Assembly: GCF_000278215.1 (NCBI RefSeq)
Contig: NZ_JH725066.1
Coordinates: 62,001 to 126,000 of the forward strand
DNA from: Bartonella rattimassiliensis 15908
GTDB lineage: Bacteria > Pseudomonadota > Alphaproteobacteria > Rhizobiales > Rhizobiaceae
Direction: 5' to 3'
DNA: 64,000 bases
Shown here: positions 16,169 through 20,033 of the stretch, piece after piece
Layout: the number at the start of each line of letters is the position of its first letter
How positions within the stretch are numbered: position 1 is the first letter of the stretch
The notes under the pieces: generated by a model
Databases searched by the model: none
The model's input: only the letters and a program-made list of their open reading frames with translations
Told to the model about the DNA's origin: nothing
Made by a program: the position numbers and the translations under genes

Positions 16169-17593
16169 TTATTCTTTGAAATGGAGCGTCTTTTTCTTAT
16201 GAGAAGTAGGTGTCTGGGAGATAAAAAATGATACGATCATGTTTGCTAATTTTTGCGCTAAATGTTGTTTACTCATATGTGGCCATTGTTCAACTTTTTC
16301 TCTACTCACGAGATAAATTTGATTTGTATCAGAGCCCATGACACTCGTGCCGTCAGAGTGAAGAGAAATATCATTAGCAAGAATGAAATCAACTCCTTTT
16401 TCGATCAGTTTTTTTTGCGCATTGGCAATAATATCACATGTTTCAGCAGCAAAACCAATGACCAATGAGGGACGGTTTGGAGCATGTCCAATTGTTGCTA
16501 AAATGTCAGGATTTTCAACCATATGAAGGGATGGTGGTGTTTTATGAGTATTTTTTTTAATTTTGTGTAAAGATTGTGTTTGACTGCGCCAGTCACAAAC
16601 AGCGGCAACAAAGATAGCACCATCAGCCGGCAATGCGGTTTGAACGGCTTGTAACATCTGTTGTGCTGTTTCAACATGAATGGTTTTTACTTTTTGTGGG
16701 TCTGCAAGATTAACAGGTCCACAAATAAGTGTTACTTTTGCACCCAAATGCGCAAGAACGGTTGCAATGGCATGACCTTGTTTACCAGAAGATCGATTAG
16801 CAAGATAACGCACTGGATCAATTGGTTCATGGGTAGGGCCAGATGTAACGATGAAATGGCGGCCATAAAGAGGTTTTTCATGGACATTAAAAAGGCTCTC
16901 TATGGCAGCGACAATGGTTAAAGGTTCGCTCATGCGTCCATATCCTGTCTCATCACGTTCAGCCATATTTCCGATTTCTGGTCCGATGATATGAACGCCA
17001 TCTGCGCGCAATTGCGCAACATTACGAATAGTTGCTGGATGCGCCCACATGGCTGGATTCATAGCGGGTGCAATTAAGAGGGGGCAGCGTGCTGCTAAAA
17101 GAACACAATCAGCCAGATCATCCCCTATGCCATTGGCTATTTTTGCAATTCTATTAGCTGTAGCGGGAGCTAAAATGATAAGGTCAGCATTACGTGCCAA
17201 ACGGATATGTCCGATATCATGTTCTTCTTCGCGTGAAAATAAATCAGTATATACGGTACCACCGCTTAAAGCTTCAGCAGCTAAAGTGGTAATAAATTTT
17301 TGTGCTGCTTTTGTCATTATGACTTTTAAGTTTGCTCCACGTTCTTGTAAACGACGAATGAGATCAAGCGCTTTATAAGATGCAATACTTCCACCAATAA
17401 TAAGAAGGAGAGATTTTGATTGCAATGATTGCACTTCAATAGCACTGGCATGAGAGGGTTGTATAGTGAGATTTGTGTGATTATTTAAGAGACGACGGGC
17501 TTCTTCTTCCATAGAAATACCATTTTGCGCGGCACGTATGCGCAAAGATTCTTTGGTCTCAGGAGACAGGTTACGAATAGTAATGCTAGCCAT
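16169..17593 (-). CDS. coaBC: CoaBC with an N-terminal ribbon-helix-helix domain
   Basis: CoaBC joins cysteine to 4'-phosphopantothenate and decarboxylates the product in coenzyme A synthesis. Residues 1-41 are a FitA-like ribbon-helix-helix domain (ASITIRNLSPETKESLRIRA, then MEEEARRLL), followed by a linker of about 18 residues. The CoaC flavoprotein domain spans about 60-230, with active-site His129 and PAMNPAMW at 176-183. The CoaB ligase domain spans about 243-455, with AAVCDWR at 330-336 and KIKK at 344-347. The ATG has GAAGG six bases upstream, and no Met occurs between residues 28 and 93, so the fusion looks genuine. The clamp segment (208-221) lacks the Cys of E. coli Dfp. ubiB lies upstream on the same strand. 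Confidence 0.94.
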   Translation of the reverse strand: MASITIRNLSPETKESLRIRAAQNGISMEEEARRLLNNHTNLTIQPSHASAIEVQSLQSKSLLLIIGGSIASYKALDLIRRLQERGANLKVIMTKAAQKFITTLAAEALSGGTVYTDLFSREEEHDIGHIRLARNADLIILAPATANRIAKIANGIGDDLADCVLLAARCPLLIAPAMNPAMWAHPATIRNVAQLRADGVHIIGPEIGNMAERDETGYGRMSEPLTIVAAIESLFNVHEKPLYGRHFIVTSGPTHEPIDPVRYLANRSSGKQGHAIATVLAHLGAKVTLICGPVNLADPQKVKTIHVETAQQMLQAVQTALPADGAIFVAAVCDWRSQTQSLHKIKKNTHKTPPSLHMVENPDILATIGHAPNRPSLVIGFAAETCDIIANAQKKLIEKGVDFILANDISLHSDGTSVMGSDTNQIYLVSREKVEQWPHMSKQHLAQKLANMIVSFFISQTPTSHKKKTLHFKE

Positions 17594-17661
17594 AAAATAC
17601 CTTCAAGAAATAAAATGATTGCAATGATTTCATTATTGATATTTTTAGCATATTAAGAAGA

Positions 17662-19248
17662 TTAGAAAAGATGAAAAAAGTAAAAAGTAAGACAAATGCA
17701 ACAAAGTGCAATGATGAAGAGGTTATAACGACTATAACGGTTTCTACGACTTTGTTCGATAGCAAGTTGTTTGAGGGTAGCAGGAGAAAGATTAAAACCT
17801 GTTTTTTTCATTTGGTTGAAATTTTCTTCTATATGTTGGAGATTTTGGACAAGTTGTGGTGTTTTGCGTGCCAGCGCAAGGATAGCTTGTGCTCCTTCAC
17901 TAAAGTCTTTTGCAAGGCCTATGGGACCTAAATTTTTATTAATCCATTCTCTGACAATGGGTTCAGAAGCTTTCCACATATTAAAATTGGGATCTAATAT
18001 GCGGGCAACGCCTTCCACGACAACCATAGTTTTTTGTAGCAATAAAAGTTCAGGCCGCGTTTGCATATCAAACAATTCAGTGACTTCAAATAACAATGTG
18101 AGCAACTTAGCCATGGAAATACTTTGTGCTGATTGTCCGTGAATTGGTTCACCAATAGCGCGATTGGCTTGCGCAAAGCTTTCAATATTGTGGTATGGAG
18201 GGACATAGCCTGCTTCAAAATGCGCGCGTGCTACTCTGTGGTAATCCCGGGTAATAAAGCCGTAAAGGATTTCAGCAAGGAAATGCTTTTCTTTTTTTCC
18301 AAGTCGTCCTGTAATGCCTAGATCAACAGCTACAATACATCCTTGTGAGTCTACAAATAAATTACCAGGATGCATATCGGCATGAAAAAAACCATCACGT
18401 AATGTGTGGCGTAGAAAAGATTGAATAAGTGTAATGGCAAGTGCCTGTAAATCAAATCCTGCTTCTTTGAGTTTGGAAACTTCAGATATCCTTATACCAT
18501 CAATCCATTCCATTGTGAGAACATTACGTCCTGTCCGTTCCCAATTAATACTTGGAACCCGAAAGCCTGTATCATGTTGAATATTTTCAGCCATTTCAGA
18601 TATAGCTGCTGCTTCTAAGCGTAAATCCATTTCAAGGCGTGTAGTTTGTGCTAAAGTATCCACTACACGAACAGGACGTAGTCTTCGAGAGGCAGGGATA
18701 TAACGCTCTTGTAAATGAGCAATGAGATAGAATCCTCTAAGATCTTTAGAAAAACGTGCTCTAATATTAGGACGAATGACTTTTACAGCGCATTTTTTCT
18801 TATGACCGGTTTCATTAATATATTCAGCAGGATGAACCTGAGCAATAGAAGCAGCGGCAATGGGGGGATAAAAATTTACGAATAAATCATCAATAGAGCG
18901 ACCAAGAGAACTTTCAATTTGAGCAATAGCAGCGGTACAAGAAAATGTTTGGACATGATCTTGTAGTTGTGACAAGTCATCTGCAACATTACGTCCAACA
19001 ATATCAGGTCTTGTAGCAAGAAATTGACCAAGTTTTATGTAAGAGGGTCCAAGCTTATTGATGGCATACGAAATATTTTCAGATCGCTGTTTCTTTTTCG
19101 TTTTGCGTCGTGCTAATACACGCGCTATACGATGGCACAATGCTGGAAATCCTTGAAGATCATCGTGAGGAAGAGCACTTAAAACACCTTCACGTGTTAA
19201 AATCCACCCGGCCCGCATCAATTGAAAGTAAGGAGAAATTTGCACCAT
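17662..19248 (-). CDS. ubiB: UbiB, ABC1/ADCK-family protein for ubiquinone synthesis
   Basis: UbiB is an atypical kinase-like ATPase needed for ubiquinone synthesis at the inner membrane. It carries the family's KxGQ motif (YIKLGQFLATRPD), an AAASIAQVHPA loop, GFFHADMHPGNLF and VDLGITG, and it ends with a hydrophobic C-terminal segment of about 20 residues that can anchor it in the membrane. The start used is the ATG at 19246-19248, two bases after the ubiE stop. A TTG five codons earlier (19263) would overlap ubiE. The 528 residues are normal length. It forms a run with ubiE and coaBC as in other rhizobia. Confidence 0.94.
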   Translation of the reverse strand: MVQISPYFQLMRAGWILTREGVLSALPHDDLQGFPALCHRIARVLARRKTKKKQRSENISYAINKLGPSYIKLGQFLATRPDIVGRNVADDLSQLQDHVQTFSCTAAIAQIESSLGRSIDDLFVNFYPPIAAASIAQVHPAEYINETGHKKKCAVKVIRPNIRARFSKDLRGFYLIAHLQERYIPASRRLRPVRVVDTLAQTTRLEMDLRLEAAAISEMAENIQHDTGFRVPSINWERTGRNVLTMEWIDGIRISEVSKLKEAGFDLQALAITLIQSFLRHTLRDGFFHADMHPGNLFVDSQGCIVAVDLGITGRLGKKEKHFLAEILYGFITRDYHRVARAHFEAGYVPPYHNIESFAQANRAIGEPIHGQSAQSISMAKLLTLLFEVTELFDMQTRPELLLLQKTMVVVEGVARILDPNFNMWKASEPIVREWINKNLGPIGLAKDFSEGAQAILALARKTPQLVQNLQHIEENFNQMKKTGFNLSPATLKQLAIEQSRRNRYSRYNLFIIALCCICLTFYFFHLF

Positions 19249-19250
19249 TT

Positions 19251-20033
19251 TTAAATTTTCCAACCTGAATGCAGTGTTGCAATCGCGCCGGTGAGATTAC
19301 GGTACGATACGCGCGAAAATCCCGCTTTCTTGATCATATGGGCAAAATCATCTTGTTTAGGAAATTTTCGAATAGATTCAACTAAATAACGATAAGCATC
19401 GCCATCATTTGCAATAAATTGCCCTATCTTAGGGATAGCATGGAAAGACCAAAGATCATAAATTTTATCCAGTAGAGGCATCTCGACATTTGAAAATTCT
19501 AAACATAAGAAACGTCCACCGAGCTTTAAAACACGAAAAGCTTCTTTAAGGGCTTGATCAATATGAGGGACATTACGAATTCCAAAAGCAATCGTGTAAG
19601 CGTCAAAGCTTTGATCTTCAAAGGGGAGGTATTCTGCATTGGCTTCAACAAAATCAATCAAGGAGGCAAGACCATTTTTTTGTGCGCGTTGTTTGCCAAC
19701 GTTGAGCATAGATTCATTGATATCAAGTACTGTAGCATGGGCTTTTTGACGTGAAGCATTAAGGATGCGAAAAGCAATATCACCTGTACCACCAGCGACA
19801 TCAAGAACTTTCCAATGAGAAAATGCCGGTGGAGAAAGCCATGCAACCATAGAATTTTTCCACACACGGTGTATCCCTAAGGATAAAATATCATTCATCT
19901 TGTCATAATTTTCAGCAACAGAATGAAACACACCATTCACCATAGATTGTTTTTGTGTTTCATCAACTTTTGTAAAACCAAAGGAGTGTTCCATACCACC
20001 TTTGGCTCCTACACGTTCTGTTTCAGTTGCCAT
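19251..20033 (-). CDS. ubiE: demethylmenaquinone / ubiquinone methyltransferase
   Basis: UbiE is the SAM-dependent C-methyltransferase of ubiquinone synthesis. The 260 residues contain the SAM-binding motif [16 protein letters not shown], the family segments [17 protein letters not shown] and [13 protein letters not shown], and a Trp-Lys-Ile C-terminal tail. The ATG has AAGGAAGG upstream. It is first of the ubiE-ubiB-coaBC run. Confidence 0.96.

Follow-up and report, generated by a model that had tools for sequence, protein, structure and literature searches.

The coaBC gene of Bartonella rattimassiliensis 15908 encodes an enzyme that carries a FitA-like ribbon-helix-helix (RHH) domain ahead of its CoaC and CoaB domains. 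Sequence comparison indicates that this domain is probably a captured FitA-type antitoxin whose toxin has been lost, and that RHH-CoaBC probably binds TGATWGCA sites near its own start and represses its own gene. The domain, its spread, its origin and a candidate operator are well supported, and an autoregulatory role is likely. The preliminary description of this DNA had offered DNA binding or self-control by CoaBC and the capture of an old antitoxin as alternatives; our results favour both together, with a half-site at fused genes and a toxin-antitoxin pair upstream of unfused ones. Coordinates below refer to the window, the whole 64,000-nucleotide stretch that was analysed.

16169..17593, minus strand: coaBC, an RHH-CoaC-CoaB fusion of 474 amino acids with an ATG start (ORF, Pfam and TIGR00521)
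17480..17590, minus strand: FitA-like RHH domain, residues 2–38 (PF22513)
17438..17479, minus strand: linker, residues 39–52, variable and probably disordered (pN/pS 0.74; pLDDT <50)
16898..17416, minus strand: CoaC, phosphopantothenoylcysteine decarboxylase domain, residues 60–232 (PF02441 Flavoprotein)
16310..16867, minus strand: CoaB, phosphopantothenate-cysteine ligase domain, residues 243–428 (PF04127 DFP)
17600..17604, minus strand: ribosome binding site GAAGG, 6 bases before the ATG (sequence)
17616..17632, minus strand: upstream operator-like tandem TGAAATCATTGCAATCA, ending 22 bases before the ATG (pattern search; half-site enrichment)
17417..17433, minus strand: intragenic operator-like tandem TGCAATCATTGCAATCA in the linker codons, covering parts of GTG54 and TTG57 (pattern search)
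17647..17652, minus strand: possible −10 hexamer TATGCT, suggested by the 8-mer TATGCTAA in 32/50 upstream regions of the genus
17662..19263, minus strand: UbiB-like ORF directly upstream of coaBC, 68 nt away (ORF list; named by reading its translation)

Pfam places FitA-like_RHH (PF22513) at CoaBC residues 2–38 with an E-value of 4.4e-16 and 59 bits against a curated cut-off of 27, which bears out the FitA/Arc-type fold first proposed for residues 1–41. The domain is in frame with CoaC, as had been stated, and the same open reading frame carries the Flavoprotein and DFP domains; residues 58–453 match TIGR00521 (coaBC_dfp) at 405.5 bits, against an equivalog cut-off of 219.7. The protein is 82% and 84% identical to the CoaBC of two named Bartonella, and no other protein in the genome (2.17 Mb, 12 contigs) exceeds the PF22513 cut-off. 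A profile built from 14 sequences (12 fused, that of the window included, and two free-standing antitoxins) matched Neisseria FitA in a search of the PDB (2h1o and 2bsq; E-values 5e-7 and 1e-6) and aligned the ribbon strand to FitA ASVVIRNL. FitA and the CoaBC N-terminus belong to the same RHH family, with the strand ASxxIRNL common to both. In a single-sequence PDB search with the CoaBC N-terminus, designed proteins obtained better E-values than FitA, and for this reason we rely on the Pfam and profile searches. The AlphaFold2 model, a monomer, predicts helices at residues 11–24 and 28–38 and disorder at residues 39–52 (pLDDT <50), and draws residues 2–7, the expected ribbon strand, as a low-confidence helix (residues 1–10, mean pLDDT 61); its support is therefore limited to the two helices and a loose linker. 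The ORF at 17662..19263 (minus strand) is presumably UbiB, judging from its translation, so no toxin gene adjoins coaBC on the upstream side, and for that side the earlier statement to this effect stands.

Selection on the RHH codons was compared with that on the rest of the gene in 30 genes of the window's genus (L003, L053–L081), representing its closer part. The ratio pN/pS was 0.122 for RHH residues 2–38, 0.119 for CoaC, 0.134 for CoaB and 0.740 for linker residues 39–52. The RHH is held as tightly as the catalytic parts while the adjoining linker is nearly free, which indicates a translated, functional domain and translation from the first ATG. An ATG start is preserved in those fused genus genes that were inspected, and the good ribosome binding site attributed to it was found again as GAAGG at a distance of 6 bases, with GGAGG in its place in several relatives within the genus. 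The preliminary description was also right that there is no methionine between residues 28 and 93, the next after Met28 being Met93. It had pointed to the GTG and TTG codons at residues 54 and 57 as starts that would speak against a fusion; both are present in the window gene, inside a 17-bp DNA element. A start there is disfavoured by the RHH pN/pS of 0.12 and by relatives, in which neither codon is kept as a start codon; codon 54 is also ACG, GCG, GAG, AAA or CAA in them.

The same architecture was sought in other Rhizobiales and found beyond Bartonella, in both family and order. The fusion is real and more extensive than first noted, spreading over the genus, the family, Bradyrhizobium, Rhodopseudomonas and Afipia. 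A coaBC match was present in 70 of 71 genomes of the genus, which we infer to be Bartonella, and 68 of these 70 match from residue 1 (one split and one partial, of 131 residues). The match begins at residue 23 or 25 in L082 and L083, where the RHH frame is broken soon after its start. In L100 (G234) coaBC is split in two overlapping frames, possibly through a sequencing error, possibly by a genuine break. In the family, taken as Rhizobiaceae, a match to the fused profile that begins at its first or second position was found in at least 76 of the 297 genomes searched; one more fusion (G427) was recognised by inspection, and a survey of 199 genomes of the order found the fusion also in five genomes of one large-genome genus. 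The best 80 named loci comprise 47 that are fused (among them Phyllobacterium, Brucella, Zhengella, Nitratireductor, Mesorhizobium, Bartonella, Bradyrhizobium, Rhodopseudomonas and Afipia) and 33 without the RHH, whose matches begin at query residue 37 or beyond (among them Rhizobium, Sinorhizobium, Agrobacterium, Chelativorans, one Mesorhizobium and Rhodobacteraceae). A survey of the class gave a match in 294 of 385 genomes; among the matches listed, none outside the order begins at the RHH.

Other N-terminal extensions on CoaBC were also seen. One genome of 28 in its family (G063; L051/L242) has a Cro/C1-type HTH domain at the same position (HTH_3, 29 bits vs 23), with two perfect palindromes GGATATATCC just before the coaBC start, and is apparently an independent DNA-binding fusion. 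The extensions of L243 (G943) and L244 (G939) are short and mutually similar, share an RFG.EAVGDP motif, gave no Pfam match, and are possibly further DNA-binding domains.

Fused coaBC genes share an upstream word that was first noticed and counted afterwards. At 97 of 115 distinct fused loci (36/50 in the genus and 61/65 elsewhere) it is present, as an exact TGATWGCA or the complement of this word, no more than 120 nt from the RHH start, in contrast to none of 63 unfused loci. When all 8-mers were counted without guidance, TGATTGCA came out on top, at 60/65 fused and 0/63 unfused loci, and among the named loci (n = 80, partly the same species) the half-site is found at 42/47 fused and 0/33 unfused. 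These counts are phylogenetically non-independent, yet a quick tree requires the RHH label to change 20 times, with at least seven of these changes forced. Unfused control windows of 130 nt ended 30 nt before the CoaC motif and were thus placed by motif rather than by start codon. The motif filter placed 187 of 220 loci; seven fused loci that it missed have the half-site in six cases, the exception being L100. Both broken-RHH loci (L082, L083) were left out of the fused and unfused counts alike, and neither genome has a half-site upstream of its RHH remnant, even by a loose definition. Fourteen of the 50 genus loci have no exact upstream half-site, and the one-base variant TGAAATCA is common there (35/50). 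Single half-sites occur at −39 and −38 in L251 and L255, fusions in another family. In the unfused L215 one TGATTGCA lies beyond the control window, 386 nt ahead of the CoaC motif.

Half-site pairs are most often 9 bp apart (41 pairs, followed by a spacing of 23 with 10 pairs), and a loose test for two half-sites at this distance within 200 nt is positive at 87 of 115 fused loci (28 misses) vs 0/63 unfused. The tandem TGMWATCATTGCAATCA, with at most one mismatch, has two matches in the window's genome, both in coaBC (one before the start and one in the linker codons), while its reversed control has none. A close tandem form with up to two mismatches returned the same two sites in the 64-kb window; shuffles gave a mean of 0.18 and reached two in 3 of 100 cases. 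A search for TGATTGCANTGATTGCA in 32 other genomes (29 fused, and three for which fusion is not established) gave one copy in each of 13 and no match of the control. Every copy is no more than 190 bp from the start of coaBC; 11 are upstream and two in the linker, both of the latter in the window's genus. Six free-standing FitA-like antitoxin genes elsewhere have the exact half-site upstream in one case and TGATATCA repeats in three, so that TGATWGCA is not general to the antitoxin family. The operator half-site of FitA itself is reportedly TGCTATCA. A promoter scan gave no clear promoter (three found vs 1.6 expected), and TATGCT was not listed by it. We also observed a 15-codon ORF (MKSLQSFYFLKVFYG; 17586-17633, minus strand) that starts at the upstream operator-like site and runs into the beginning of coaBC in another frame; the KSLQS in it resembles the linker peptide, since the same operator-like sequence underlies both.

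A second candidate site lies inside the coding sequence. The genus linker codons around residues 54–59 contain an exact half-site in 43 of 50 cases, vs a mean of 4.7 and a largest value of 11 under random synonymous codons (500 draws). Synonymous divergence (pS) at codons 53–60 is 0.114, about threefold lower than the 0.36–0.41 found elsewhere. The linker half-site is rare outside the genus (2/65), and the genus rows are related, so that their linker half-sites are not independent events. Both broken-RHH genomes retain a tandem at the linker.

The origin of the fusion may be visible at coaBC genes that lack it. At 14 of 22 unfused family loci inspected, genes for a FitA-like antitoxin and a PIN toxin lie directly upstream of coaBC, in a sample that leans to close relatives of fused genes, so this fraction is not a random-sample rate. 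The 22 loci are L006, L011, L015 and L201–L220 minus L214; twenty had been chosen from rows without a full RHH match, mostly the best-scoring, and L214 proved fused. L210 and L015 were scorable in one of two inspections and L212 in neither. The same pair stands upstream of the unfused coaBC of a named strain, Mesorhizobium sp. J18 (L339), and the remaining scorable unfused loci, including named Rhizobium and Sinorhizobium, have no such pair upstream. Where readable, the PIN toxin stop is 20–53 nt before the CoaC motif. Pfam confirms three antitoxins (60–63 bits) and three PIN toxins (62–71 bits) from pair-bearing loci. Of the 14 loci scored for it (15 less L210), 10 have TGAYWGCA-type sites before the antitoxin gene, in four cases at a 9-bp spacing, a count that has no control set.

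Comparison of fused and free proteins points in the same direction. The fusion L214, in which the antitoxin sequence is preserved in full, aligns with the free L006 antitoxin along its entire length of 84 residues at 45% identity, and the fusion L172, which keeps part of the antitoxin, aligns with that of L217 over 67 columns at 52%. On the tree, a quick and weak reconstruction that leaves 89 of its 208 inner branches open, the unfused, pair-bearing L211 is sister to the fused L124 at 97 and L006 falls among fused Mesorhizobium rows; the fusion may therefore have arisen more than once. One early origin with losses is compatible with this tree, as are several origins. The fusion is best read as an upstream antitoxin that became joined to coaBC, with the toxin lost. 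Two fused loci showed additional upstream features. At L221 (G402) the fused coaBC is preceded by a free-standing FitA-like antitoxin gene whose start lies about 825 bp away; no toxin gene was seen by eye between the two, and the linker of the fusion resembles an antitoxin C-terminus. L178 (G513) has a PIN-like signature, possibly a toxin remnant, upstream of its fused coaBC and 384 nt from the CoaC motif.

We hypothesize that a FitAB/VapBC-type operon lay directly upstream of coaBC, that its PIN toxin gene was lost, and that the antitoxin became joined in frame to CoaC. The N-terminal 38 residues would then be a working FitA-type DNA-binding domain, and RHH dimers on the CoaBC oligomer would bind TGATWGCA half-sites, often two 9 bp apart, near their own start. 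Plentiful CoaBC would lower coaBC transcription, an autorepression as in PutA. In Bartonella the same CoaBC oligomer may also contact the second site, in the linker codons, and CoaBC could stabilise the DNA-bound complex as the toxin does in FitAB. PutA is described as a flavoenzyme whose N-terminal RHH represses its own gene (PMC5293562). RHH-CoaBC is alike in having an N-terminal RHH on a flavoenzyme, with self-repression shown for PutA and predicted for CoaBC; the enzyme and pathway differ, and unlike PutA, RHH-CoaBC in Bartonella has a candidate operator also inside the coding region. The PutA RHH is not known to derive from a toxin-antitoxin operon.

The FitAB system of Neisseria gonorrhoeae offers a second comparison. 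The operator complex comprises four FitA-FitB heterodimers on 36 bp of DNA, and the toxin stabilises it and thereby promotes DNA binding (PMC3920265). There the PIN toxin bridges RHH dimers, whereas in the case of CoaBC the enzyme would do so. For Mycobacterium smegmatis, whose CoaBC shares the CoaC-CoaB core with the fusion, the portion of the study available to us describes a dodecamer with CoaC as the N-terminal domain, describes no DNA-binding domain, and reports that CoaB activity is inhibited by CoA and acyl-CoAs in mycobacteria (PMC7794376). If the fusion keeps this dodecameric form, up to six RHH dimers would be presented. A more speculative extension, which we hold only tentatively, is that a tamed addiction module senses CoA supply. 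CoaBC would replace the toxin in bridging antitoxin dimers, and an oligomer loaded with CoA thioester or substrate might close or open a loop from the promoter operator to the intragenic operator.

The TGATWGCA sites might instead belong to an unrelated transcription factor, with the RHH merely aiding CoaBC oligomerisation. CoaBC is indeed a large oligomer (PMC7794376), RHH domains dimerise, and the low frequency of the exact half-site at free-standing FitA-like antitoxin genes (1/6, with TGATATCA repeats in 3/6) fits such a factor. We nevertheless consider this improbable, as a factor unconnected with the RHH sits poorly with the absence of the site from all 63 and all 33 unfused windows. It also leaves aside the restriction of the tandem to coaBC, at up to one mismatch in the window's genome and as an exact tandem in the 32 others, and the presence of TGAYWGCA before antitoxin genes upstream of unfused coaBC (10/14 scored loci, no control).

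Two further readings concern the RHH itself. It could still act as an antitoxin that neutralises PIN toxins elsewhere in the genome, and some fusions do keep antitoxin C-terminal sequence; the genus linker, however, is short and almost freely evolving (pN/pS 0.74), and the window's genome has no other FitA-type RHH above the cut-off, which makes this very unlikely. We give slightly less credence still to the RHH being a relic, with translation starting further downstream and the upstream frame open by inertia. GTG54 and TTG57 are available in the window gene and two members of the genus get by without an intact RHH frame, but the RHH pN/pS (0.122, 30 genes) equals that of catalytic codons and differs from the adjoining linker, the ATG start is kept in the fused genus genes shown, and codon 54 is no start codon in many relatives. 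Our literature search for CoaBC with ribbon-helix-helix, autoregulation or toxin-antitoxin, or for phosphopantothenoylcysteine decarboxylase with antitoxin, found no report, as judged by title and the start of the abstract, with most subscription papers outside the search.

If this reading is correct, an essential enzyme of CoA synthesis would be autoregulated in Bartonella, Brucella, Mesorhizobium, Phyllobacterium, Bradyrhizobium and their relatives, with a conserved operator lying within coding sequence. It would also make visible how a toxin-antitoxin operon could become a housekeeping regulator, as living genomes represent either state.
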